From assembly GCA_028561875.1 (NCBI GenBank), contig JAQQTI010000003.1, positions 1-64,000 of the forward strand: a DNA stretch of 64,000 nucleotides, in the 5' to 3' direction. Both the position numbers and the translations under genes were made by a program. This document shows, piece after piece, positions 17,967-57,357 of the stretch (positions are counted from its first letter, which is position 1; each line of letters starts with the position of its first letter). The notes beneath the pieces are model-generated. The model was given only the letters and a program-made list of their open reading frames with translations, was not told the DNA's origin and ran no database searches. Source of the DNA: Methanomassiliicoccaceae archaeon COG_1 (GTDB lineage: Archaea; Thermoplasmatota; Thermoplasmata; Methanomassiliicoccales; Methanomethylophilaceae).

Positions 17967-18893
17967 ATGCAAAAATGCGAATTGATATGGTTCAACGGAA
18001 AGCTCGTGAGGTGGGACGATGCCAAGGTCCACGTGCTCGCGCACGCCCTCAACTACGGTACCGGGGTCTTCGAGGGGATCAGGGTCTATCAGACCCCGAA
18101 GGGCCCGGCGATCTTCAGGCTGAGGGATCACGCAAGGAGGCTGGTCGACGGCTGCAAGATCATGGGCATCGACCTCAACTTCGGAGGCAAGGCCTACTCC
18201 CACGAGACGGTCATGGAAGCAATCAAGGACGCCGTCCGCGCCAACAGGGACGTGGACTACGTCAAGCCCTGCGTATTCCTCAGCGGCGAGGAGGTCGGCC
18301 TCAACCCGGTCGGCGTGCAGGCGGCCTTCGCCATCACGTGCATCAACATGGGCGCATACCTCGGCAAGAATGCCAGCGCCGGCATCAAGCTGGTCACGTC
18401 CTCGTGGCAGAGGCCGGACTACCTCTGCGGTCCCGCCGGTGCGAAGGTCAATGGTTCGTACGTCGCATCCTGCCTCGCGAAGAGGGAATCCATACGCCAG
18501 GGGGCCAACGAGGCCGTCATGCTCAACCGTCTCGGCCACGTTGCGGAGTGCACAGGCGAGAACATCTTCATGTACAAGTTCGGGAAGATCTTCACCCCGT
18601 CCGTGGACGAGGGCATCCTGCAGGGCGTCACCCGCGGGTCCGTAATCCGGATTGCCAGGGATCTCGGCTACGAGGTCTGCGAGGTCCCCGTCACCAGGTT
18701 CATGCTGATGGGCGCCGACGAGGTCTGGCTCACCGGTACCGCGGCAGAGATCGCCCCGGTTACCGAGTATGACGGGCAGGCGATCGGCGACGGAGAGCCC
18801 GGGGAGGTCTCCGGGAGGATTCACGCCAAGTTCGCCGAGATCGTCACCGGCAAGGACAGGACCTACGAAGGGTGGCTCGATTACGTGAACCGA
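17967..18893 (+). CDS. ilvE: Branched-chain amino acid aminotransferase, stop codon lost
   Basis: Class IV PLP aminotransferase of the IlvE type, 308 residues to ...TYEGWLDYVN. Motifs: LNYGTGVFEGIR, the PLP lysine in GAKVNGSYVAS, ECTGENIF, and LTGTAAEIAPVTEYDG near the C-terminus. It catalyses the last, reversible transamination in Val, Leu and Ile synthesis. The expected stop position (18891-18893) reads CGA, one transition from TGA. As given, the frame runs on through about 160 nt of non-coding-like sequence and the next gene to 19865. Either a point mutation, a sequence error or an unusual fusion; I favour two genes. Confidence 0.85.
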
Positions 18894-23317: not shown

Positions 23318-24325
23318 ATGCGGTTCAAGACAGACATGGTGGCGGTCGTAGCCGTCGCCCTGATGGCCGTGGTCATCGCCGGCGAGTATTTCACGTACGG
23401 GGCCGAGGTGGACCGCGGTAGCGATGCGGAGTGGGATGCCAGCTCTGTCAGATACAGCATATCCTCCGGCGGCTCAGACTTCTACTCCGCGGTGCTCATC
23501 GGTGCCGGCGCGTACAAAGTCCCGGAGCGCTTTTTCATCTACGTCGACGACACGTACAGCCAATTCTACGATGACGCCTGCGACCGCATGGAACGGGAGG
23601 GGGTGTCGCCCTACCGCATAAATCAGAGGGAGGCGGCGGAGCAGATCGAGAAGAACCTGGCCTTCCGCGGCATCCGTCACGTGAACACCATCAGCTCCGG
23701 AGGGCTCAGGCCCTTGCTCGAGTCAGGGTACGACTTCGGCCTCGTCGTGACGAGCTACGCCCTGCCCTCGTCGGTTTACGCGGGCTCCGCCGACGACCTC
23801 TTCGTGCAGTGGATAAAAGCCGGGGGGGCCGTCTACTGGCTCGGCTCCGAGATGGGTAGGTTCTATGTCGACGGGAAGCGCCTGGAGGAGGTGGCCGGGT
23901 CCGAGGAGCTCTTCTTCGGGAAGTCCGGGGTCATGTGCAGGGAGGACGAGACCGCCGACGAGAAGGTGGACGCGTTCACCGACGCGCTCAGGCTGAAGAA
24001 CACCGGCGCCCTCTTCGGGCTCCGCGGCGTGGGGCACGGTTTCGGGTACTCGTACGGCGGGTACTGCAGCGCCACGCTGCTGCGCTTCGGTGCCGGTATG
24101 ATCGGCGTGTTCTCCGGAGGGGATCAATACGAGCCCCTTGACGATCTGGGGCAGGTAATCGCCTCCGGCCTCACGTACGACAGCGAGTTGCTCGATTACC
24201 GGACGGGGAGCGTCGTCCGCGGGACGGTCCACGGCGAGATGGAATGCGGGTCTAAGGACGCCACGCTGTACATATTCATGGGCGGGACGTACCAGCACTA
24301 CGGGAAGAGGTACCATGCGGCTTGA
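23318..24325 (+). CDS. Membrane-anchored extracytoplasmic protein of unknown function
   Basis: A 335-residue protein with one N-terminal helix (about residues 7-24, MVAVVAVALMAVVIAGEYF), probably an uncleaved anchor, followed by a soluble domain with no motif I recognise. The internal segments YDFGLVVTSYALPSSVYAGSADDL and FVQWIKAGGAVYWLGSEMG resemble the Rossmann-like folds of GATase/DUF4350-type domains, but this is only an impression. The start follows a TATA box (CATATTTAATACG, 23281-23293). The next gene overlaps it by 11 nt and encodes a multi-helix GT-C protein, so the two probably work together outside the cell membrane. Confidence 0.7.
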   Translation: MRFKTDMVAVVAVALMAVVIAGEYFTYGAEVDRGSDAEWDASSVRYSISSGGSDFYSAVLIGAGAYKVPERFFIYVDDTYSQFYDDACDRMEREGVSPYRINQREAAEQIEKNLAFRGIRHVNTISSGGLRPLLESGYDFGLVVTSYALPSSVYAGSADDLFVQWIKAGGAVYWLGSEMGRFYVDGKRLEEVAGSEELFFGKSGVMCREDETADEKVDAFTDALRLKNTGALFGLRGVGHGFGYSYGGYCSATLLRFGAGMIGVFSGGDQYEPLDDLGQVIASGLTYDSELLDYRTGSVVRGTVHGEMECGSKDATLYIFMGGTYQHYGKRYHAA

Positions 24326-25850
24326 CCGTATCAAGGCCCCCGGTTGGTACGTCGGCCTAAAGGGCCGCCTCGGCGAGTTCAAGCATACGCTCGCCGCGGT
24401 CATCGTCATAGGGCTCGTCCTCAGGTTCGCAATCATGGCCCTCGCCATGGTGTACGACTCCGACTACTGGGCGCTGGTGGTCCGGAACATCAACGCCGGC
24501 GAGGGGCTGTACGGGCTCGACGGCTACTTCTACTCGCCGGTGTGGGGTTACGTCCTGGGCTTCATCAACGGGTTCCAGAACGCGTTCTTGGACATCGGCG
24601 AGGCGGCGCGGAGGGTGGCCGAGGTCGCGTACTTCGAGGGCGGCCCGCATCAGACCACGGCGACAATCACGTCGCTCGCCTTCAACTACCTCACGAAAAT
24701 CCCGCTCGTCATGTGCGACCTGGTCCTCGCATGGCTTTCCTACGTTCTTGTCATCGACCTCGGGCGGGGGAAGAGGCGCGCCACCTACGCCTTCGCCCTC
24801 GTGTTCCTCTCCGCGACGGTCATCGGCTCGACGGCAATCATCGGCATGCCCGACACGATCTCCGCGGTCTTCATGATGCTCTCAATCGTGCTCGTGATCC
24901 GCGGTAGGGCATTCTCCGGCGGGGCCTGCCTGATGACCGCGGTGCTGACCAAGTTCTTCCCCGTGTTCGTCCTCTTCACTATCGGCGGCTACATCCTCGC
25001 CAAGCACAAGGGGGATCGTGCGGATATGACGAGGGAGGTGGGCCTGGCAATCGCCGGAGCCGTCGCCGTCGCCGTCATCCTGCTCATCCCGCAGATCCTG
25101 GAGGGCACCGTAGGAGACTGCTTCAGGTTCATCACCGACCGCATCGGGTTCTCGTGGGGCTCGTCCATCAAGAGCATGCTGGTCGGGGCGTTCCGCATAC
25201 TGGCCTACACCGTGGTCCTCATCGTGTCATTCCTAGTCGGCAAGCTTGTGTACAAGAGCTCCGCGGAGGATCTGGATATCAATTTCGTGAAGTACTCGCT
25301 GATAATGGTCTCACTCTGCATGCTGTTCCCGCCGGCGACGCAGTACCTCGTGGTCGTCATCCCGTTGCTCGCGTGCTACGCCGCCATCGCGAAGCCGAAG
25401 CTGGTGCTCTGTTGGTGGATCCTGTCAATCGGCGCGATGATCTTACTCACCGTCTCGCTGTGCACCAATCTGTTGCCGGTCGCCGTCTACACAGGCTGGA
25501 TTGACGTGAGTTCGCTCACGCATTACTATGACGTTTGGAACGCGGGCGCCGGGCCGTTCACGCCGTGGAACATGCAGTTCATACTCGGCAGCACGGTGCA
25601 GTACGTCGGAGTGGTGGCGATTTTCGTCGTCCTGTTCAACAGGAGGCTAATGGGGTACCTCACCAGGATGGTCGAGGCGAGGAAACCGGCGGGGCCTGCC
25701 CGATCGGAGTTTCTTCGTCGAGTCGATGCGGTCCCACACGCTCATGTTGTCACCGCCTTCCGCGACATGCTTCCGCGCCTGTCTGCGGCACCTCAGCTCG
25801 AGCATGATGTTCTGGACCAGCCAGATCGGGTGTGGGGGAAGCTCCCGTAG
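24315..25850 (+). CDS. GT-C fold multi-pass glycosyltransferase
   Basis: Up to 511 residues with about 10-11 hydrophobic helices. The first extracytoplasmic loop contains VYDSDYWALVVRNINAGEGLY, with an Asp pair in the place of the GT-C catalytic motif. Such enzymes transfer mannose or other hexoses from lipid-phosphate donors. The gene is coupled to the preceding one. The last about 60 codons run antisense through the end of the convergent GT2 gene and look unnatural; the real end is probably near NRRLMGYLTRMVEARK (about 25685). The frame ends at TAG (25848-25850). Confidence 0.75.
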   Translation: MRLDRIKAPGWYVGLKGRLGEFKHTLAAVIVIGLVLRFAIMALAMVYDSDYWALVVRNINAGEGLYGLDGYFYSPVWGYVLGFINGFQNAFLDIGEAARRVAEVAYFEGGPHQTTATITSLAFNYLTKIPLVMCDLVLAWLSYVLVIDLGRGKRRATYAFALVFLSATVIGSTAIIGMPDTISAVFMMLSIVLVIRGRAFSGGACLMTAVLTKFFPVFVLFTIGGYILAKHKGDRADMTREVGLAIAGAVAVAVILLIPQILEGTVGDCFRFITDRIGFSWGSSIKSMLVGAFRILAYTVVLIVSFLVGKLVYKSSAEDLDINFVKYSLIMVSLCMLFPPATQYLVVVIPLLACYAAIAKPKLVLCWWILSIGAMILLTVSLCTNLLPVAVYTGWIDVSSLTHYYDVWNAGAGPFTPWNMQFILGSTVQYVGVVAIFVVLFNRRLMGYLTRMVEARKPAGPARSEFLRRVDAVPHAHVVTAFRDMLPRLSAAPQLEHDVLDQPDRVWGKLP

Positions 25851-33252: not shown

Positions 33253-33523
33253 GTCGCCGCCCTCGTTTGGCCCTCGGTTTCCTGGTGATTCTCTCGGTCG
33301 CGAACTGAAGCGCCGTCCTCACGGCGCAGCGGAGCCCCTCGGTCTTGACGATGGACCTGAACGCGTAGACGTAGCTCCTGGCGGTAGCCATGCGGGATGC
33401 GGGGGCGTAGCTCGGTACAGCCGTCGCTGTGCGGTACGCCTCGTTCCGGGCCTTGAGGAGCCGCTCCATCTCCTCCGCCTCGGACCTCCAGTAGTCTTCC
33501 CCGTATTCCGAGCCGCTCATCAT
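33149..33523 (-). CDS. Small hypothetical protein coupled to ABC exporter genes
   Basis: A 124-residue frame of which the first about 90 look like a real protein: an acidic amphipathic start (SEYGEDYWRSEAEEMERLLKAR), suggestive of a short coiled coil, then SYVYAFRSIVKTEGLRCAVRTALQFA. The start ATG overlaps the stop of the ABC ATPase gene (ATGA), favouring translation. The 3' part overlaps the GT4 gene by about 100 nt and is probably not native. No family recognised; perhaps a small accessory of the GT4 enzyme. Confidence 0.5.
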   Translation of the reverse strand: MMSGSEYGEDYWRSEAEEMERLLKARNEAYRTATAVPSYAPASRMATARSYVYAFRSIVKTEGLRCAVRTALQFATERITRKPRAKRGRRHGDTHPEYHELHVLPAELRRVAEDSRPPLQDAPG

Positions 33524-34278
33524 GTGCCCTCCGCGCCGGGGCCGAGCATGGCTTCTTTGTAGTGGGCGCAGACCTCTGCGGCGGCGCCCTCCTCTCTCAC
33601 TCTACCGTCATCAAGCCATATGATGTTGTCGCAGATGTCGGTGGTCTGCTCGATGTTGTGCGTGACGAGCACGATGGTGCCTCCCGCGTCGCGGAAGGCC
33701 TTGAGCCGGTCCATGCACTTCTTCTGGAATTGGATGTCCCCGACGGTGAGGATCTCGTCGACCAGGAGTATGTCGGCGTCGACGTTGATGGCGACAGAGA
33801 ACGCGAGCCTGAGGTACATGCCCGACGAGTAGTTCCTGATCCTCTCGTCGATGAACTCGCCGATCCCGGAGAATTCCACTATGTCGTCGAAGCGTTCGTC
33901 GATGACGCCCTTGGGGATTCCGAAGATGGAGGCGTTGATGTATATGTTCTCGCGCCCGGTCATATCGGGGTGGAAACCCGCACCGAGCTCGATGAGGCAG
34001 GCGATCTTGCCATCGGTCTCCACCGTCCCTTCGTTGGGGCGGAGGATTCTAGTGAGCAGCTTGAGCATGGTGCTCTTGCCAGAGCCGTTGCGGCCGATGA
34101 TGCCGAGCACTCCGCCCTTAGGGACGGAGAAGGAGACGTCGTGCAGCACCTCGCGCACCCGGGTATCGTCCCTCCTCTCGTGGTAGACGACGAGGTCCTT
34201 CAGCGAGTTGCTTCTGCGGTGCGTGTTGAAGCGCTTGCAAAGGCGCCTCACCTCGATGGCGTTCCCGGGGTCGTCCAT
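33520..34278 (-). CDS. ABC-2 polysaccharide exporter ATPase (Wzt/TagH-like)
   Basis: A 252-residue ATPase: Walker A GIIGRNGSGKST, Q-loop region ELGAGFHPDMTGREN, the Wzt-type signature NYSSGMYLRLAFS in place of LSGGQ, and Walker B DILLVDEILTVGD. No C-terminal glycan-binding domain is present. The start ATG at 34278 overlaps the stop of the permease gene. Together they should export a lipid-linked glycan. Confidence 0.93.
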   Translation of the reverse strand: MDDPGNAIEVRRLCKRFNTHRRSNSLKDLVVYHERRDDTRVREVLHDVSFSVPKGGVLGIIGRNGSGKSTMLKLLTRILRPNEGTVETDGKIACLIELGAGFHPDMTGRENIYINASIFGIPKGVIDERFDDIVEFSGIGEFIDERIRNYSSGMYLRLAFSVAINVDADILLVDEILTVGDIQFQKKCMDRLKAFRDAGGTIVLVTHNIEQTTDICDNIIWLDDGRVREEGAAAEVCAHYKEAMLGPGAEGT

Positions 34279-35111
34279 CAGAGCACCTCCGCGAAGTCCT
34301 TCTCGAGGTACCTGAAGACGGCGATGCCGACGGCGAGTAATGCGGCGGCGAGCGCGCAACACATCAGGACCGTGTCGATGCCGGGCACGACCCTCCAGTA
34401 GAAGATGTCGTGGAACATCTCGACGAAGTACGTCATCGGGTTGAGCGAGAGGATCGTGTCGACGAAGGCGTTGCCGAACGTCTTCATCTCGTACATGATC
34501 GGCGTGATCCAGATCCATGCCATCAGCAGTACGGAGACTATGTACTGAACGTCGCGGAGGTAAGCGTTCAGCGCCGAGAGCATGAACGTCAGCCCGGAGA
34601 TGAATACGAAGGCGATGCCTATCGCCACCGGGAGGAAGAGCAATGCGTAAACCGATACCCCGTATCCGGTGGCCGCTAGGATGACGAAGAACATCGCCAC
34701 CATGATCAGGAAGTTCACCATCTTCGACAGCACGGTCGAGAGGGGTAGGACGACGTGCGGGAAGTAGATCTTCTTCAGCATGTCGGCGTTGGCGACTATC
34801 GTGCCCGATCCCTCGGACATCGATTCCGAGAACCAGATCCAGATGACCATCCCCGAAATCAGGTAGATGGCATAGTTATCGAGGTCGGGGTCGAAGATGA
34901 CCGTGAACACGATGAGGTACACGACGATCTGGATGAGCGGGGTGATGAAGTTCCAGAGGAACCCGAGGACGGATCCCTTGTACCTCCCGCGGATCTCCCT
35001 CCTCACGAGGTTGGAGATCATCGAGCGGTAGTCCGAAAGCTCGCCGAACATGCCGAGCACGGAACCCTGCCTGGGCCCCGTGCGCCTCGTCCCGCCCCCG
35101 GAATCAGTCAC
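34278..35111 (-). CDS. ABC-2 polysaccharide exporter permease (Wzm/TagG-like)
   Basis: A 277-residue membrane protein with six helices. Typical segments: LVRREIRGRYKGSVLGFLWNFITPL, ADMLKKIYFPHVVLPLS, NAYLRDVQYIVSVLLMAWIWITPIMY, LNPMTYFVEMF. It pairs with the ATPase that follows it. Its start overlaps the end of the upstream GT2 gene by 8 nt. Confidence 0.93.
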   Translation of the reverse strand: MTDSGGGTRRTGPRQGSVLGMFGELSDYRSMISNLVRREIRGRYKGSVLGFLWNFITPLIQIVVYLIVFTVIFDPDLDNYAIYLISGMVIWIWFSESMSEGSGTIVANADMLKKIYFPHVVLPLSTVLSKMVNFLIMVAMFFVILAATGYGVSVYALLFLPVAIGIAFVFISGLTFMLSALNAYLRDVQYIVSVLLMAWIWITPIMYEMKTFGNAFVDTILSLNPMTYFVEMFHDIFYWRVVPGIDTVLMCCALAAALLAVGIAVFRYLEKDFAEVL

Positions 35112-42671: not shown

Positions 42672-43517
42672 ATGGCCGAAACGACCGAGGACGGAAGCAG
42701 AGGGAGGAAAGCATTGTCCAGCCCTACCTTCGATTACGTCGACGGGATATTACTTGGGCTGTACGACTCGCGCAGCGTCCTGTTCGCCCTGGTCCGCCGC
42801 AACCTCGCCGGGAGGTACCGTAACTCCTATCTCGGCTTCGCCTGGCAGTTCATCTTCCCGGCCGTGACGGTCCTAATCTTCTACGTGGTGTTCACCGGCA
42901 TCCGCCAGAACCCGATGGAAGACTTCGCCGTCTACCTGTGCGCGGGGATGTTCCCGTTCTTCTTTATGAAGACCAACATCACCCAGGGCGCGGGGTGCAT
43001 AGTGGCAAACGGGGCTTACATCAACAAGATGTACTTCCCCCGCTCCCTTATCGTCCTGGCGCAGGTCATCAGCTCGATGGTGGTCTTCCTCATATCTTAC
43101 GAGACCGCAATCCTCCTGGCCGCGCTCAGCGGGCACCACCTCGACCCGCTCGCCCTGCTATGCCTCGTGCCGATGATACTCCTCATGGCGCTGTTCTCGG
43201 TCGGATGCGTCCTGCTGCTGTCGTCGATAACGGTGTACGTGCGCGACGTGCAGCACCTAATGGACCTAGGCTCCTGGCTCCTGTTCTGGATAACCCCCAT
43301 ATTCTACGTCTCCGACGAGACCTCCGGCATTCTCAACGCCATCATCTGGTCCAATCCCCTGACGTACTTCGTGGATTGCTTCCAGAGCCTGGTGTACTGG
43401 GGCGAGATGCCCGGCTTCACGCAGATCGCCGCCTGTATTTTCATGACCCTCGTGGTCCTGACCGCGGGGTTCTACGCCTTCCAGAGGCTCAAGGGCGGAT
43501 TCGCGGAGAGGGTCTGA
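42672..43517 (+). CDS. ABC-2 polysaccharide exporter permease (Wzm/TagG-like), second copy
   Basis: A 281-residue six-helix permease: LVRRNLAGRYRNSYLGFAWQFIFPA, NGAYINKMYFPRSLIVLAQ, SSITVYVRDVQHLMDLGSWLLFWITPIFY, SNPLTYFVDCFQSL. It resembles the permease at 34278 but is clearly diverged. It pairs with the following ATPase-Sel1 protein, whose gene has its own TATA element (CTATTTTTATCG, about 43566-43577). Confidence 0.92.
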   Translation: MAETTEDGSRGRKALSSPTFDYVDGILLGLYDSRSVLFALVRRNLAGRYRNSYLGFAWQFIFPAVTVLIFYVVFTGIRQNPMEDFAVYLCAGMFPFFFMKTNITQGAGCIVANGAYINKMYFPRSLIVLAQVISSMVVFLISYETAILLAALSGHHLDPLALLCLVPMILLMALFSVGCVLLLSSITVYVRDVQHLMDLGSWLLFWITPIFYVSDETSGILNAIIWSNPLTYFVDCFQSLVYWGEMPGFTQIAACIFMTLVVLTAGFYAFQRLKGGFAERV

Positions 43518-43612: not shown

Positions 43613-45595
43613 ATGGACCCGGGGAATGCGATAGAGGTGAGGGGGCTCAGCAAGTCCTTCGTGCTCGAGAGGAAGACGGGCGAAAAGGGGGCGTTCGGTA
43701 AGGAGAAGACCGAGAAAGTCCGTCGCACCGCGCTCGAGGGGATAGACCTCGATATCAGGAAGGGGGATGTCGTCGGCATCGTCGGGAGGAACGGGAGTGG
43801 CAAGAGTACGCTCCTGAAAATCATCTCCCACATCATGGAGCCCGACGAGGGCACCGTGTCCATCGACGGGAAGATAGCTAGCATCCTCGAGCTTGGGATG
43901 GGCTTCCACCCCGATATGACCGGAAGGGAGAACATCTATCTCAAGGGGGAGCTCTACGGCTTCTCGAGGGGGGCCCTGGATGAGAGGATCGACTCCATCA
44001 TAGCCTACTCGGGCGTGGGGGAGTACATCGACAGTCCCGTGAGGACGTACTCCACCGGCATGACCGGGAGGCTCGCCTTCGCGGTCATGGTTAACATAGA
44101 TGCCGACATCCTCCTGGTCGACGAGGTCCTCAGTACCGGAGACGTCGTATTCGCTGCGAAGGCGAGGGAGCATTTCAGGAAGCTGTCGAAGAGCGGGAAG
44201 ACTGTGATCTTCGTGTCTCACTCCCTCGGAACCATCGAGGACATGTGCACCCGCGGGGTATGGATCGACTCGGGGAGGATTATGAAGGACGGTCGCATAA
44301 AGGACATCACCTCCGCCTATATGCGGGGGGTGGAGGATTCCCCCGAGATAGTCTCCGACCTCGCCGAGTATGAGGTGCCTGACGCCCAGCACAGGCTATC
44401 GCTGATGTACCGCGACGGGAGGGGCGTGGAGAAGGACGAGGCGAAACGGGAGGAGTGGCTCAAGAAGTCCGCGGAGCAGGGGTACGTCCCCGCCCAGGCG
44501 GAGTACGCCGAGCTCCTATACGCCAGGGGCGACGAGGCCTCGAAGGCGGACGCGTTGGAGTTCTACCGCTCCGCGGCTCTGTCCGGGAACGAGGAGGCGA
44601 AGGCGAGGCTGTCGGCAATCCTCGGGGGGTACCGCGCGGACAGGGACGCCGACGCCCTGCGGGCGTTCTACCGGAGGCTGGCGGACAGGGGGAACCCCCT
44701 GGACGAGTTCCGCTGCGGCGATCTGATGCTCACCTCGGCGAGGGGCGAGGACGACAGGAGGGAGGCCCTCGTATGGTTCACCAAGGCGGCCGAGAGGGGC
44801 AACTGTGACGCCATGTTCAAGGTCGGGGAGATGCTACGCGACGGCAAGGGCGAGAAAAAGGACCCGAAGAAGGCCGTCGAGTGGTTCGAGAGGGCCGCCG
44901 CGAAGGGACACGTGAGGTCGCAGTTCTATCTAGGGGAGGTCTACTATCATGGCAGAACCGTCCCGAGGGACGAAGCGAAGGCCCTGAAGTGGTACTAGGA
45001 GGCCGCCTGCCGCGGGGACGGCAGGGCGATGTACATGGCAGCGGTGATGTACCGCGACGGCATGGGCACGGATTCTGACCCGAAGAGGGCGGAGGAGTGG
45101 TTCGACGCTTTCGCGCACTCCGGGCTAACGAGGTTCATGGTATGGGAGGGAGACGTGCTGAAGTTCTTTCCCGACCTCGACCCTGGATGGAGCGCGGCGG
45201 ACTGCTACGGGGTGGCGGCGAAGTATCGCAACGCCGGCGGCTCGGGAGCGCTGGGCGTGCTGTACCGTGACGGGGCTAACGTCCTCGCCGACCCGGAGGC
45301 ATCTGAGAAAGGGTTCGAGGAGCAGGCCGAGAGTTGGGGATGGCCGATGGCTGGGGCCGCGGACTTTCACTACAAGGGATACGGCGGGAAGCCCGATTTC
45401 AAGAGGGCTGCGGAGCTCTATTCAGAGATGGCGGCCATGGGCGACGCCACCGCCTGCTACCGCCTCGCGTTGATGCGCCGGGACGGGAAGGGAATCGAGA
45501 AGGATATGGCCGAGTACCGCAGGCTTCTATGGTGCGCCGGGGAGCGCGGGAACAGGGACGCCCTGGTATTGCTGAGCTCCAGAGGGAAGCATTGA
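43613..45595 (+). CDS. ABC-2 exporter ATPase fused to Sel1 repeats, with in-frame UAG
   Basis: Residues 1 to about 240 form a Wzt-like ATPase (GIVGRNGSGKST, ELGMGFHPDMTGREN, TYSTGMTGRLAFA, DADILLVDEVLSTGD). Residues about 255-660 are Sel1-type repeats (AxxRLSLMYRDGRGVxKD, AKALKWY..., MYRDGMGTD). Codon 462 is TAG (44996-44998), inside a Sel1 repeat: ...DEAKALKWY-TAG-EAACRGDGRAMYMAAVMYRDGMGTD continues in the same frame to TGA at 45593. TAG stands where other repeats have Lys/Arg. In a pyrrolysine-decoding methanogen this would be read through, giving a 660-residue protein. Otherwise the product stops at 461 residues. Confidence 0.85.
44996..44998 (+). other. In-frame amber codon, candidate pyrrolysine site
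   Basis: TAG between the two halves of one Sel1 repeat, with unbroken repeat homology in the same frame for 198 codons afterwards. No competing start is needed downstream, and no Shine-Dalgarno restart is visible. Confidence 0.65.
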
Positions 45596-45919: not shown

Positions 45920-46162
45920 GCAGCGGTCGTCTCGTGACCTCGATGTGCCTTGCGGCGGCCATCATCGTGGCGGACGACGACGCGGAGACGGTCGGGCTGG
46001 CGGAGAGGTGCTACGCGGACTGTGGCTCTGCGATGATGGTCCGCATCGGCAGGATGCACAGGGACGGTGGTGCGTTCCGGAGGACGTCGAAAAGGCGGTT
46101 GAGTGAACGCGCAAGGCGGCGGAAAGGAACCCTGGGTACGAGAAGGAGCTCTTCGAAATGAC
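45920..46162 (+). pseudogene. Sel1-repeat gene remnant
   Basis: One frame reads ERCYADCGSAMMVRIGRMHRDGG, then after a frameshift another reads VPEDVEKAVE-stop-TRKAAERNPGYEKELFEM. These match Sel1 repeats like those of the preceding ABC-Sel1 gene. With a frameshift, an in-frame TGA and no start it is a decayed piece, probably of a duplicated gene end. Confidence 0.6.
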
Positions 46163-46202
46163 CCGGACTGAGAGATTGCAGTGCCTGTTCTGCTCGCCAA
46201 TT

Positions 46203-46267: not shown

Positions 46268-49200
46268 ATGGAAGAATCGCACTCCAGAATCGGAATAGTC
46301 GGATATTGGTATGCCACGAATTACGGTAGCGTGATGACGTATTACGCCCTCTATCGGACAATCGAGGGGCTCGGCTACGAGCCGATGCTAATCGACATAC
46401 CCGAGAAGGAGAAGGACCCCGAGGGCGAGGGCGTGTTCTCTCGCATATTTCTGAGGGACCACTGTCGCATAAGCGAGAGCGTGAAGTGGGACGAGATTTC
46501 CAGGCTCAACGACATGTGCGACGGGTTCGTCGTGGGCTCGGACCAGGTCTGGACGCGGGACGCGCTCAGGATCTCCCGCTACATGTTCTTTCTGAACTTC
46601 GTGGAAGGGGACCGCAAGAGAATCGCGTACGCACCATCGTTTGGGAACTCCCGCGTGGATTTCGCCTCCGACGAGAGGGCGAACATCAGGAAGTGCCTCC
46701 GTGCGTTCGACAGGATATCCATCAGGGAGGACGCCGGCAGGGAGTTCGTCCGCAAGGAGCTCCACATCGACTGCGACCAGGTCCTGGACCCAGTGTTCCT
46801 CATGAGTACGAAGGACTACGATGCGATAGCGTCTGAATCCAATGCGGACACGGACGGCGGATACTTACTTGCGTACATCCTTGACCCCACCCTCGACAAG
46901 GAAGAGGTTGTCGCGAAGGTCGCGGGGAAGCTCGGACTGAAGGTGAAAATGGTACTCGACGGAAGGTTCGGGACCTCTGCCAAGAACAAGTCAAAGCTGA
47001 AGAGGTACGCGGACGACGTCATTGAGGACGTCAGCGAGTCCTGCTGGGTCAAGCTCTTTAGGGACGCCTCATATGTGGTCACCGACTCACACCATGGGCT
47101 CGCGATGTCCATTATCTACAGCAAGCCGGTCATCGCCTACGCCAACCACAGTCGCGGGTATTCGCGTTTTATATCGCTCCTGAACCTCCTCGGGATACCG
47201 AAGATTCTGATTGAAAGTAGCGAGGCCATCGGGGACTCCCTCGAGCCGTTCGCGATAGACTACGGGGCGGTGTCAGAGGTCATCGCCAGGGAGAGGGATG
47301 GGTCCGTGGAGTGGCTGAGGGGGGGATTGTACACCAGATCCCCGCGCAACAGCGTGGAGTTCACCGTGGACATATACGAGCAGTGCTGCGGATGCTCCTC
47401 GTGCTTCAACGCCTGCCCGAAGCGCGCCATAACGATGGTGCCCAACGGGGAGGGCTTTTTAAATCCGTCCGTGGACCCCAGCAAGTGCACGGACTGTGGA
47501 ACGTGCTCCAAGAGGTGCCCTGAGCTGAACCCGCGCTTCGACAACTTCGCGAATCCGAAATGCTACGCAGCGTGGGCCTCGGACGACATCAGGAGCGTAA
47601 GCTCTTCGGGAGGGATGTTCTCCGTCGCCGCGCAGGCGGTCCTGGAGGAGGGAGGGGTCGTGTGCGGGGCGGTCTTCAGGAATGACTGGAGTGTGGAGCA
47701 CATCATCGTGGAGGACGAGATCGGCCTCTCCGAGATTCGCGGCTCCAAGTACATACAGAGCGAGATCGGGGACGCGTACCGCAGGGTGAAGGGAATGCTC
47801 AAGAAGGGGAGGCCCGTCCTCTTCACCGGGATGCCTTGCCAGGTTGCTGGGCTGCACGCGTACCTTGGCAAGGATTACGATAACCTGTATACGGTGGATA
47901 TCCTCTGCCACGGCATCACCAGCTACAAGGTGTTCGAGAAGTACAGGAAGGAGATACTCGACGGGAAGAGGATCACCGACATAAAGTTCAAGGCGAAGAA
48001 GCCGTGGGGATGGCACGCGGGGGTGAACGCGAAGTTCGACGACGGCTCTTCGTACTCGGTGATCATCGAGAAGGACCCGTACTACCGTGCGTACATCAGC
48101 GGGCTCTCAAGGAATACCACGTGCGGCACGTGCGTGTTCGAGAGGACGCCCAGGCAGGGTGACCTGACCATAGGCGACTTCTGGAAGATACAGGACTTCG
48201 ACCCCTCCCTGAACGACAACAAGGGGACCTCCCTGGTCCTCGTTAACAGCGCGAGGGGGGAGGAGCTGTTCGGGATGATGGGGCCGAAGCTCCAGAGATG
48301 TGTGGAGGTTCCCATAGCCTACGGTATCGCTGGCAACGGGATTATCAAGTTCCCGTACAATCTCCATCCGAACAGGAACCTGTTCTTCAGGGACATGGAC
48401 TCCATGCCTTATGGGGAGCTCCTCGACAGGTACGAGGGCAAGAGGAAAGGGATAGTGGGGCACGAGAAGAACATGAACAGGAGCAACAGGGACATCTACG
48501 CGATAGCGGACCTCGTGGCGAGGAACTGCAACGGAAGGAAGGTAATCCTGTGGGGGGACAGCCCCGAGCTCAGGAAGGTTCTCGTGGAGGAGTGCGGGCT
48601 GTCCACGCCGTTTATCGTGACCTCTGACAGGAAGAACTACGACGGCAGATGGGTGCACATGTTGGACGAGCTCAAGGGCAGGAACAAGGAGTTCTACCTG
48701 GTGGCCTTCGGGAGGGCGTACGACGCACACTACAGTGAAGCCATTAAATCGTACGGGTTCGAGGAGATAGAGGACTATGTCTATAGGGTCATAAAGCCCG
48801 TGGTCCTGGAGGACTTCGACCTTTCCAAGGGGCCATATACGGATGCATACGGCAACAGGGTCGAGGGCTCCAAGGGAGTGGTCAAGAGAATCGTTCTCAG
48901 AGGATACTGCAATCATATCGAAATTGCTGGCAACGTGTTCGGACTGCAGAATCTGCACTTCGATCTCACCGCCAAGACATATGTGGAGATCGGTCCGTGG
49001 ACTAACTTCACGCAGAACGAGACCGTCATCAATACACAGGGTTACGTCGGGTTCGCGGCCGTGATGATAGGGTCGGCGTGCCGCTTCATGAGGTCCTCTC
49101 TGAGGATGTTCCTCAATCCGCACGGATCCACCATAACCATCGGCGACAAGTGCACGTTCGGGGACAATCTGGACATGCATGCGAATTCTGGGAAGAAAAT

Positions 49201-50467
49201 CATCTTCGGGAAGGACTGCATGCTGTCCAAGGAAATCACGATGTGGGCCGGGGACGGGCACTCGCTGTTCGATGTCAAGACCGGCATGAATGTGAATTCC
49301 ATCTACGAGACGCAGTCCCTCTACCGCAACCAGATTGTGATAGGGGATCACGTGTGGATAGGCGACGGGGCATTCATCATCCACGGGACAAACATCGGGA
49401 GCGGTAGCGTTATCGGGGCCAAATCCGTTGTGAAGAAGAGATGCCACAACAATGTAACACTTGCTGGAAACCCTGCAGTGCAGATCAAGACTGATGTGGC
49501 ATGGTGTCACGGAATGAACGTGATTAATATCTCCCAATGCGAAGAATATGCCAGATTGACCGATGACACCAATCCGCCGCTCTCTGGCGCCGAGGTGCTT
49601 GTCCTTGGAGGTAACAAGCAGAACGGCAGGGCTCTCGTGGAGGAGCTTCTGCGCAGGGGCAACGTAATTACTCTGGGCAACCGCGGCAGGGATCCAGATC
49701 CGTTCGGGGACAAGGTAGATCGGTTGATTCTGGATGTATCCAAACCGGAGAGCGTGAAGAACGCTCTGTCAGGAAGATACTTCGATGCGGTCTTCAATAA
49801 CATCGCCTATTCATCCAACTCCGTCAAGAACGTCCTATCGAACGTGAAGTGCGGGAAGTACGTCCAACTGTCGACAATCGGGGTGTACTTCAGCCAGCGC
49901 ATGGACCAGCAGGAGAGCGATTTCAATCCCCGCAACGCGAAGCTGAAATGGGTCAACGCAGACGTGGGCTATGGATACGGGAAGCAGCAGGCTGAATGTG
50001 CAGTATTCCAGCAGTTCGACAAGGTGCCCTCTATCGCCGTGAGGATCCCTTACGTTGTGCCTACGGACCGTCTGTCCTACTACTGTGACTGCATAGTCAA
50101 CGGTGAGCCCATGGCTATAGGAGACGTCGAGCGTAGGATGACGTTCGTGAGATGCTCCGAGCTCGGGAAGTTCATGGTATGGGCGGTCAACCAGGATTTC
50201 AGCGGAGTGGTGAATTTCGGAAGTTCTGGTTCCGTGTCCGTCGGAGATATCGTCGGATATATAGAAAGGAAGACGGGATGCAAGGCGACGATTTCGAAGG
50301 ACGGTAAAGCCGCCCCGTTCGAGAACAACGACTCGTTCTCGCTGAACCTAGATGTGGTGAACGGGATGGGGTATAAGACGTCGTCCGTGGACGATTGGAT
50401 ATGGGGCGCGATCGACTACTACATCAACGAAGCGACAAAGCGCAAGAAGTCAGAAGGAAAGCAGTGA
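46268..50467 (+). CDS. Multidomain pyruvyltransferase/FrhB-like/acetyltransferase/epimerase protein
   Basis: A 1399-residue protein with four recognisable modules. Residues 5 to about 335 are a polysaccharide pyruvyltransferase (GYWYATNYGSVMTYYALYR, GSDQVWTRD, DSHHGLAMSIIYSKPV). About 365-700 are two 4Fe-4S clusters (CCGCSSCFNACP, CTDCGTCSKRCP) plus an F420 hydrogenase beta-subunit-like domain (SSSGGMFSVAAQAVL, FTGMPCQVAGLHAYL, CHGITSYKVFEKY, IGDFWKIQDF). About 750-860 are a linker domain. About 866-1085 are a left-handed beta-helix acetyltransferase (IGDHVWIGDGAFIIHGTNIGSGSVIGAKSVV). About 1107-1395 are an NAD-type epimerase domain (EVLVLGGNKQNGRALVEELL). It probably modifies a surface sugar; electron donor and substrates are unknown. 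Confidence 0.85.
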   Translation: MEESHSRIGIVGYWYATNYGSVMTYYALYRTIEGLGYEPMLIDIPEKEKDPEGEGVFSRIFLRDHCRISESVKWDEISRLNDMCDGFVVGSDQVWTRDALRISRYMFFLNFVEGDRKRIAYAPSFGNSRVDFASDERANIRKCLRAFDRISIREDAGREFVRKELHIDCDQVLDPVFLMSTKDYDAIASESNADTDGGYLLAYILDPTLDKEEVVAKVAGKLGLKVKMVLDGRFGTSAKNKSKLKRYADDVIEDVSESCWVKLFRDASYVVTDSHHGLAMSIIYSKPVIAYANHSRGYSRFISLLNLLGIPKILIESSEAIGDSLEPFAIDYGAVSEVIARERDGSVEWLRGGLYTRSPRNSVEFTVDIYEQCCGCSSCFNACPKRAITMVPNGEGFLNPSVDPSKCTDCGTCSKRCPELNPRFDNFANPKCYAAWASDDIRSVSSSGGMFSVAAQAVLEEGGVVCGAVFRNDWSVEHIIVEDEIGLSEIRGSKYIQSEIGDAYRRVKGMLKKGRPVLFTGMPCQVAGLHAYLGKDYDNLYTVDILCHGITSYKVFEKYRKEILDGKRITDIKFKAKKPWGWHAGVNAKFDDGSSYSVIIEKDPYYRAYISGLSRNTTCGTCVFERTPRQGDLTIGDFWKIQDFDPSLNDNKGTSLVLVNSARGEELFGMMGPKLQRCVEVPIAYGIAGNGIIKFPYNLHPNRNLFFRDMDSMPYGELLDRYEGKRKGIVGHEKNMNRSNRDIYAIADLVARNCNGRKVILWGDSPELRKVLVEECGLSTPFIVTSDRKNYDGRWVHMLDELKGRNKEFYLVAFGRAYDAHYSEAIKSYGFEEIEDYVYRVIKPVVLEDFDLSKGPYTDAYGNRVEGSKGVVKRIVLRGYCNHIEIAGNVFGLQNLHFDLTAKTYVEIGPWTNFTQNETVINTQGYVGFAAVMIGSACRFMRSSLRMFLNPHGSTITIGDKCTFGDNLDMHANSGKKIIFGKDCMLSKEITMWAGDGHSLFDVKTGMNVNSIYETQSLYRNQIVIGDHVWIGDGAFIIHGTNIGSGSVIGAKSVVKKRCHNNVTLAGNPAVQIKTDVAWCHGMNVINISQCEEYARLTDDTNPPLSGAEVLVLGGNKQNGRALVEELLRRGNVITLGNRGRDPDPFGDKVDRLILDVSKPESVKNALSGRYFDAVFNNIAYSSNSVKNVLSNVKCGKYVQLSTIGVYFSQRMDQQESDFNPRNAKLKWVNADVGYGYGKQQAECAVFQQFDKVPSIAVRIPYVVPTDRLSYYCDCIVNGEPMAIGDVERRMTFVRCSELGKFMVWAVNQDFSGVVNFGSSGSVSVGDIVGYIERKTGCKATISKDGKAAPFENNDSFSLNLDVVNGMGYKTSSVDDWIWGAIDYYINEATKRKKSEGKQ

Positions 50468-55974: not shown

Positions 55975-57357
55975 TTGCCTCAGGATACGAGCCACAAGGT
56001 CAGCATAATCGTCCCCGTTCTCAACGGCGGACCCTACATAGCCGGCCTCGCCGATGCGATCCTGACGCAGCAGTATCCCGATTACGAGGTGTGCTTCGTC
56101 GTGGACTCCCGCACGGAGGACGACACGGTGAAGAGGATAGAGGAGAGCATCCCCCGCCTTATGTCCGCCAGGTACGTGATGAACGACGGCGCGGGCCTCC
56201 TGGGCATCAGCCGGAACATCGCCCTCGACATAACCGACGGGGGGATAGTGTGGTTCCTCGACGTCGACGACCTCCCCTATCCGGATTTCCTCAGAAGCAT
56301 GGTCGCCACCATGGACACCACCGACGCCGACGTGGTCCTCTGCAACTACGTCATAAGCGACAGGAAGGAGATCCCGGCGATAGAGAGGGACTTTTCCGTC
56401 CGCGTCATGAACTCCGGCGAGGCCCTGGAGCAGAGGTGCCAAGAACGCATCCCGGTGACGTCCTGGGCGAAGATACAGACGCGCGCCCTCTTGGACGACA
56501 ACGGGATACGCTTCGGCGACGGGCTCTGCGAGGACATCGAGTTCACGTACAAGGAGCTCGCCTGCGCCGGGAGGGTGGCGTACGACGAGCGCCCTCATTA
56601 CCTCTACTACTGCCACGAGGACTCCGTCTGCAGCACGGAGGACGATGCCCGCGGGATCGCCGAGGTGGAGGCCTACGGCAGGCTCATGGGGTACATCGAG
56701 GGGGAATCCCCCGCGTTCTACCCGTCGTTCCGCGCCCGCGCCGCGATCACCGCCATGAGGTCCATGGTCCACATGTCCTATCCCGTGTTCAAGGAGCAGA
56801 GGGGATCCAACTGGGTGCTTCCGCTCATAAACGAGCTGGGGATACGGCGCCCGCGCCCGGAGGTGTTCATCTTCCGCCACAGCGCCTGGGCCTACTACCG
56901 TGTCGCCTCGTTCCTGATGAGGCACTACTACTACCGCATGGGGATGCTGTTCGACGAATCCGCGGGGAGGCGTCGCGATCTCCTCGCGGACCGCCACTTC
57001 CGCAGGTTCCGATACGCACGGGGCGGCATCCCCAGCACAACAGGGAGCATCCGCCGGCGATTGCGAAGAGGCGGGGGCCGTCCCCGGACCGATCCGAGCA
57101 GGCGCTTCGCATCTCTCCCGTCAGGCCCCTTAATGAGCACGTTCCAGCCATCCCCCGGCAGAGGTCCCTCGACAGGCCGGCCCCCGTCCGCCCGTCAACT
57201 TAACCGTTCTCAAAACATCGGGGAACGAATCCGGCAGACGTCTCACCCGATCACCGTTTACCCTTGGGAGATCGACCGAAACGCATCCCGGGAATCACTC
57301 CGCGAGCCAGTCTATAACGTTCTTTATCATTATCCCGCACTCGTTGCCCAGCCCTAG
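55975..57357 (+). CDS. GT2 family glycosyltransferase
   Basis: TTG-started GT-A enzyme: HKVSIIVPVLNGGPYIAGLADAIL, FVVDSRTEDDTVKRI, GLLGISRNIALDITDGGIVWFLDVDDLPYPDFLRSM. Residues up to about 345 (YYYRMGMLFDESAGRRRDLL) look native. The following about 115 residues are Arg/Pro/Ser-rich, overlap the convergent ATPase gene and end at TAG (57355-57357), so the real stop was probably near 57000-57050. Confidence 0.82.
   Translation: MPQDTSHKVSIIVPVLNGGPYIAGLADAILTQQYPDYEVCFVVDSRTEDDTVKRIEESIPRLMSARYVMNDGAGLLGISRNIALDITDGGIVWFLDVDDLPYPDFLRSMVATMDTTDADVVLCNYVISDRKEIPAIERDFSVRVMNSGEALEQRCQERIPVTSWAKIQTRALLDDNGIRFGDGLCEDIEFTYKELACAGRVAYDERPHYLYYCHEDSVCSTEDDARGIAEVEAYGRLMGYIEGESPAFYPSFRARAAITAMRSMVHMSYPVFKEQRGSNWVLPLINELGIRRPRPEVFIFRHSAWAYYRVASFLMRHYYYRMGMLFDESAGRRRDLLADRHFRRFRYARGGIPSTTGSIRRRLRRGGGRPRTDPSRRFASLPSGPLMSTFQPSPGRGPSTGRPPSARQLNRSQNIGERIRQTSHPITVYPWEIDRNASRESLREPVYNVLYHYPALVAQP

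Follow-up and report, generated by a model that had tools for sequence, protein, structure and literature searches.

The window, by which we mean the whole 64,000-nucleotide stretch of DNA that was analysed, includes a gene in which an ABC ATPase domain is fused to an array of Sel1 repeats; it lies downstream of its ABC-2 permease partner and carries an in-frame TAG at codon 462 (Table 1). The start of this gene at ATG 43613 is matched by orthologues that open with the motif M(D/K)P.(N/S)AIE, and a DNA search of the genome for second gene copies returned fragments of 40 bases only. A separate downstream gene beginning at ATG 45029 was considered and is rejected, as this start falls within a Sel1 repeat and the protein is split there in no orthologue.

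Table 1. Features of the exporter ATPase and permease genes (positions in the window).
Feature	Position	Strand	Remarks
ABC-2 permease (Wzm/RfbD-like), partner of the ATPase	42672..43517	+	PF01061, E=1.9e-17; stop TGA
ABC-ATPase/Sel1 fusion gene	43613..45595	+	660 residues with TAG as residue; stop TGA 45593-45595
Wzt-type ABC ATPase domain, residues 1-240 (approximate boundary)	43613..44332	+	PF00005, residues 41-172
Pre-TAG Sel1 repeats, residues 241-461	44333..44995	+	PF08238; helical repeats in AlphaFold2 model
In-frame TAG, codon 462, putative pyrrolysine	44996..44998	+	within predicted Sel1 helix 454-466
Post-TAG Sel1 repeats, residues 463-660, intact and coding	44999..45592	+	PF08238, E=1.4e-13; codon bias; orthologue identity

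An ABC ATPase domain (PF00005) with an adjoining ABC-2 permease (PF01061) constitutes the Wzt-type pairing, and the ABC domain here is closest to the Wzt/RfbE-type glycan export ATPases (galactan, O-antigen, TagH), with a Wzm-like permease as its partner. The best NCBIfam match of the ABC domain, to galactan export Wzt/RfbE (E=3.4e-58), reaches 196.7 bits against an equivalog cut-off of 400, and because this cut-off is missed we term the ATPase Wzt-like only; the match of the permease to galactan_ABC_perm (E=1e-15) is likewise under its cut-off. Whereas the Wzt/RfbE-type ATPases carry a Wzt carbohydrate-binding domain, the protein encoded here has the Sel1 repeat array at its C-terminus. Among the neighbouring genes are those for a UDP-galactopyranose mutase (glf) and a galE-like epimerase, one for a glycosyltransferase that matches the GlfT2 domain weakly, and other sugar-related genes. 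The Wzm/Wzt-type pair and these neighbours support the proposal, made in the first-pass annotation, that the protein is a glycan exporter component, and the exported substrate is probably a galactose-containing surface glycan.

The reverse strand carries another ABC ATPase paired with an ABC-2 permease, at 33520-35060 of the window; over the ABC domain this ATPase shares 46% identity with the first, and it has only 252 residues and gives no Sel1 match. Beyond the exporter ATPase, at 45930-46165 on the forward strand, two reading frames hold Sel1-like fragments separated by a stop, probably the remains of a decayed Sel1 gene. A single forward-strand ORF of 1399 residues at 46268-50467 comprises a polysaccharide pyruvyl transferase, an FrhB/FdhB-like iron-sulphur protein and a hexapeptide acyltransferase-like part; its C-terminal part resembles a sugar-nucleotide epimerase and has no Pfam match.

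The TAG is in frame, as first noted, and is followed by 198 open codons before the TGA is reached. The probability of such a stop-free run is P=0.0026 in a Markov-1 simulation, and each of the other five frames across this stretch contains three to five stops. The repeat homology, earlier claimed to be continuous across the TAG, is indeed so: PF08238 matches with E=1.1e-30 before the codon, 1.4e-13 after it and 8e-45 when the two parts are joined, the joined protein scoring 150 bits compared with 105 and 51 bits for the separate parts. The 198 codons have a GC3 of 0.83 and a positive codon score of 0.285 bits/codon, which is a drop from the 0.54 of the pre-TAG Sel1 part and compares with -0.5 to -0.75 bits/codon in the intergenic stretch beyond the TGA. 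The additional statement that confident genes of the window all end in TGA or TAA does not hold, as TAG is the stop codon of a GT2 glycosyltransferase ORF (55975-57357).

Searches of 60 relatives and then of 102 genomes of the family gave strong matches in 30 other genomes, and 32 orthologous loci, a few of them duplicates of one genome, were aligned with the query. All 32 loci have a sense codon at the position equivalent to codon 462 (Leu in 11, Met in 9, Glu in 7, Thr in 3, Lys in 2; TAG in none) and run on for 168-414 residues past the site, with truncation there in none. Homology to one protein on both sides of the TAG, together with sense codons in orthologues, is what marks a candidate pyrrolysine (Pyl) protein outside the methyltransferases, and both are seen here. 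The description of the site as a surface-like repeat position is accurate in part: the position is variable, but with Leu or Met in 20 of the 32 orthologues a surface-like character is not supported.

The closest orthologue (L011, from genome G018) is 48% identical to the query over residues 1-650 and has Glu at the site; pylS was not matched in G018, which is 99% complete. Identity between the query and L011 is 43% before the TAG and 37.5% after it, compared with 23-42% and 20-34%, respectively, for other orthologue pairs (two close pairs excepted). Since these values are within or above the range among the other orthologues, no decay is apparent, and the post-TAG part, to judge from these identities, is diverging no faster than it does among orthologues. 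Genome G089, in which pylS is present, contains another ABC-Sel1 paralogue with a TAG of its own at a different repeat position.

The AlphaFold2 model of the protein rests on a shallow alignment of three sequences and is uncertain as a whole (mean pLDDT 71.5, pTM 0.51), with pLDDT values of about 88-93 in the Sel1 region near residue 462. In the model this residue lies in a helix formed by residues 454-466, and termination at 462 would be expected to sever this helix, with the loss of all later repeats.

All of the pyl genes sought are found in the genome, which belongs to a methanogenic member of the Methanomassiliicoccales and is a 1.51 Mb draft in six contigs, 86% complete. The genes pylS (261 bits, cut-off 178), pylB (395 bits), pylC (333 bits) and pylD (173 bits) all exceed curated cut-offs, and pylT, a tRNA-Pyl with anticodon CUA (ARAGORN tRNA-Pyl (cta), L004 1291-1361), is immediately upstream of pylS. 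The PylSn model TIGR03912 matched nothing in the genome; as PylS lacking the N-terminal domain is known, and expected, in the Methanomassiliicoccales (PMC11467909), the missing match is not evidence against pyrrolysine. Positive controls are provided by MtbB, MttB and two MtmB genes in one region of the same genome (L040), each interrupted by one TAG. By its gene content, the cell has the capacity to decode UAG as pyrrolysine. The pylS frame closes with a TAG that overlaps the pylC start (L004 2180-2290), about 20 codons beyond the segment SYLNGYRIN, which we take to be the usual end of PylS; PylS would then itself terminate at the codon that it serves.

Use of TAG was surveyed in 464 kb of the genome, made up of 20 stretches of 20 kb and the window. 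Beyond the known methylamine-gene sites, this sample holds three other cases of in-frame TAG, two of them in non-methyltransferases; these two further genes are pyrE and one for a PPK2-type polyphosphate kinase. The single-copy pyrE (L054 1756-2295; genome C3:151756-152295) has its TAG at L054 1996 (codon 81 in the ORF as called); the corresponding codon in 11 congeners, whose flanks are near-identical, is GAG (9/11) or AAG (2/11), encoding Glu or Lys. The remainder of pyrE after the TAG is intact and 73-84% identical to congeners, and the gene as read through scores 154.5 bits against the pyrE cut-off of 106.8; this core enzyme of pyrimidine synthesis would depend on UAG decoding. In the polyphosphate kinase gene (L052 18225-19598) the TAG is at 18555, codon 111 (Q111), and two congeners, G011 (L103; a closed genome of one contig) and G006 (L104), have TAG at two other variable positions of this gene.

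Stops with open, coding-scored flanks of 40 codons number five for TAG, nine for TGA and none for TAA in the sample; by eye, the nine TGA stops mark the joins between neighbouring genes, the following gene having its start codon close by. No TGA or TAA was seen inside a domain in the sample, all stops within conserved domains being TAG, although TGA triplets outnumber TAG triplets by 2.6 to 1. On these counts, TAG is specifically tolerated within genes of this genome. It also terminates real genes, namely those for KsgA (L044) and a CbiA/CobB-like protein (L046) and the GT2 gene of the window. Iteratively trained gene calling gave 32 of 376 called ORFs ending in TAG, some of which are spurious, such as that at 24315-25850 of the window, which has no Pfam match; a simple gene call inflates this count through antisense shadow ORFs. 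UAG is not exclusively a sense codon here, and its use is mixed, as in relatives. As TAG ends real genes, some termination at codon 462 may occur.

We conclude that UAG 462 is very probably decoded as pyrrolysine, tolerated through near-neutral drift at a variable, non-conserved position in a repeat helix of a full-length Wzt-like ATPase of 660 residues. A sense codon at position 462 would have mutated to TAG, and ribosomes, supplied by the cell with pyrrolysyl-tRNA(CUA), would insert pyrrolysine there and proceed to the TGA; both the insertion and its efficiency we infer from sequence. Decoding by the machinery of the methylamine pathway would in this way complete an ABC ATPase with its C-terminal Sel1 array, the partner of the upstream permease, and the drift from sense codon to UAG would be near-neutral in a lineage that seldom needs UAG as a stop. 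The proposal of a pyrrolysine outside the methylamine methyltransferases is thus supported by the pyl genes, the sense codons in orthologues and the comparable TAGs in other genes of the genome. That the residue has a functional role is not supported, since the position is not conserved; the pyrrolysine is most likely incidental and not required.

The codon could instead be a leaky stop that yields isoforms of 461 and 660 residues with different roles, perhaps set by the supply of pyrrolysine from growth on methylamines. We consider this unlikely: the real genes that end in TAG imply that there is some release at UAG, but the break would fall inside the predicted repeat helix and not at the edge of a domain, the orthologues neither end nor bear TAG at the site, and the wandering of TAG positions within the genus fits drift and not regulation. 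For the same reasons, namely a non-conserved position, TAGs that wander between congeners and a stop that would cut a helix, we do not retain the initial suggestion of two isoforms set by readthrough. It is highly improbable that readthrough tied to pyrrolysine supply couples glycan export to methylamine availability, through full-length and truncated forms of the ATPase.

That the TAG is an ordinary nonsense mutation in a recent pseudogene, with the downstream part decaying, is very unlikely. The decayed Sel1-like fragments further downstream indicate that Sel1 genes do decay here, and the codon score is lower after the TAG than before it; against this, the 198 codons contain no other stop or frameshift, orthologue identity is undiminished after the TAG, and pyrE of the same genome, a single-copy gene, also has a TAG with its remainder well conserved. 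An assembly or sequencing error that turned a sense codon into TAG is conceivable in a draft genome. It is nevertheless the least probable explanation, as the in-domain stops of the sample are all TAG, with no TAA and none of the commoner TGA, and the closed congener G011 also has TAG in its polyphosphate kinase gene.

Pyrrolysine in such proteins has precedents. Borrel et al. (2014; PMC4153887) used the same reasoning to predict 16 non-methyltransferase Pyl proteins in "Ca. M. alvus", one of which, listed in their Table 7, has a Sel-1 domain and 389 residues (AGI86303.1); the authors propose that a background of this kind allows mutations to amber codons to become stable, and give the share of TAG stops as 1.6% in "Ca. 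M. alvus" and 11.3% in M. luminyensis. In-frame amber codons are reported in 46 genes of the rumen isolate ISO4-H5 (PMC5011839). The predicted Pyl proteins of these two sources belong to the same order and, as here, combine an in-frame TAG with homology beyond it and orthologues without TAG; the present case differs in being a 660-residue ABC-ATPase/Sel1 fusion from another species, and is not among the proteins listed in the parts of the two papers covered here.

The ABC-ATPase/Sel1 gene is a further example of a pattern already described in close relatives, and is a well-supported addition to the ordinary proteins that appear to carry pyrrolysine. Together with pyrE and the polyphosphate kinase gene, with its TAGs at differing variable positions in congeners, it supports an almost neutral drift of UAG into and out of genes in this family. 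Gene callers cut such proteins short: 198 residues are missed here, and for pyrE the shortening would mimic the loss of a core enzyme.

Kivenson et al., in Science in 2025, reportedly described an archaeal 'Pyl code' in which all TAG is read as pyrrolysine, with broad incorporation confirmed by proteomics. Our case is similar in that many ordinary proteins of archaeal methanogens would contain a UAG-encoded pyrrolysine; it differs in that TAG still terminates some genes, such as that for KsgA, and we do not assert an all-sense reading. In MtmB, MtbB and MttB of this genome, the same machinery decodes the in-frame UAG, and the pyrrolysine is conserved and catalytic, whereas the position of codon 462 in the ABC-ATPase/Sel1 gene is not conserved.
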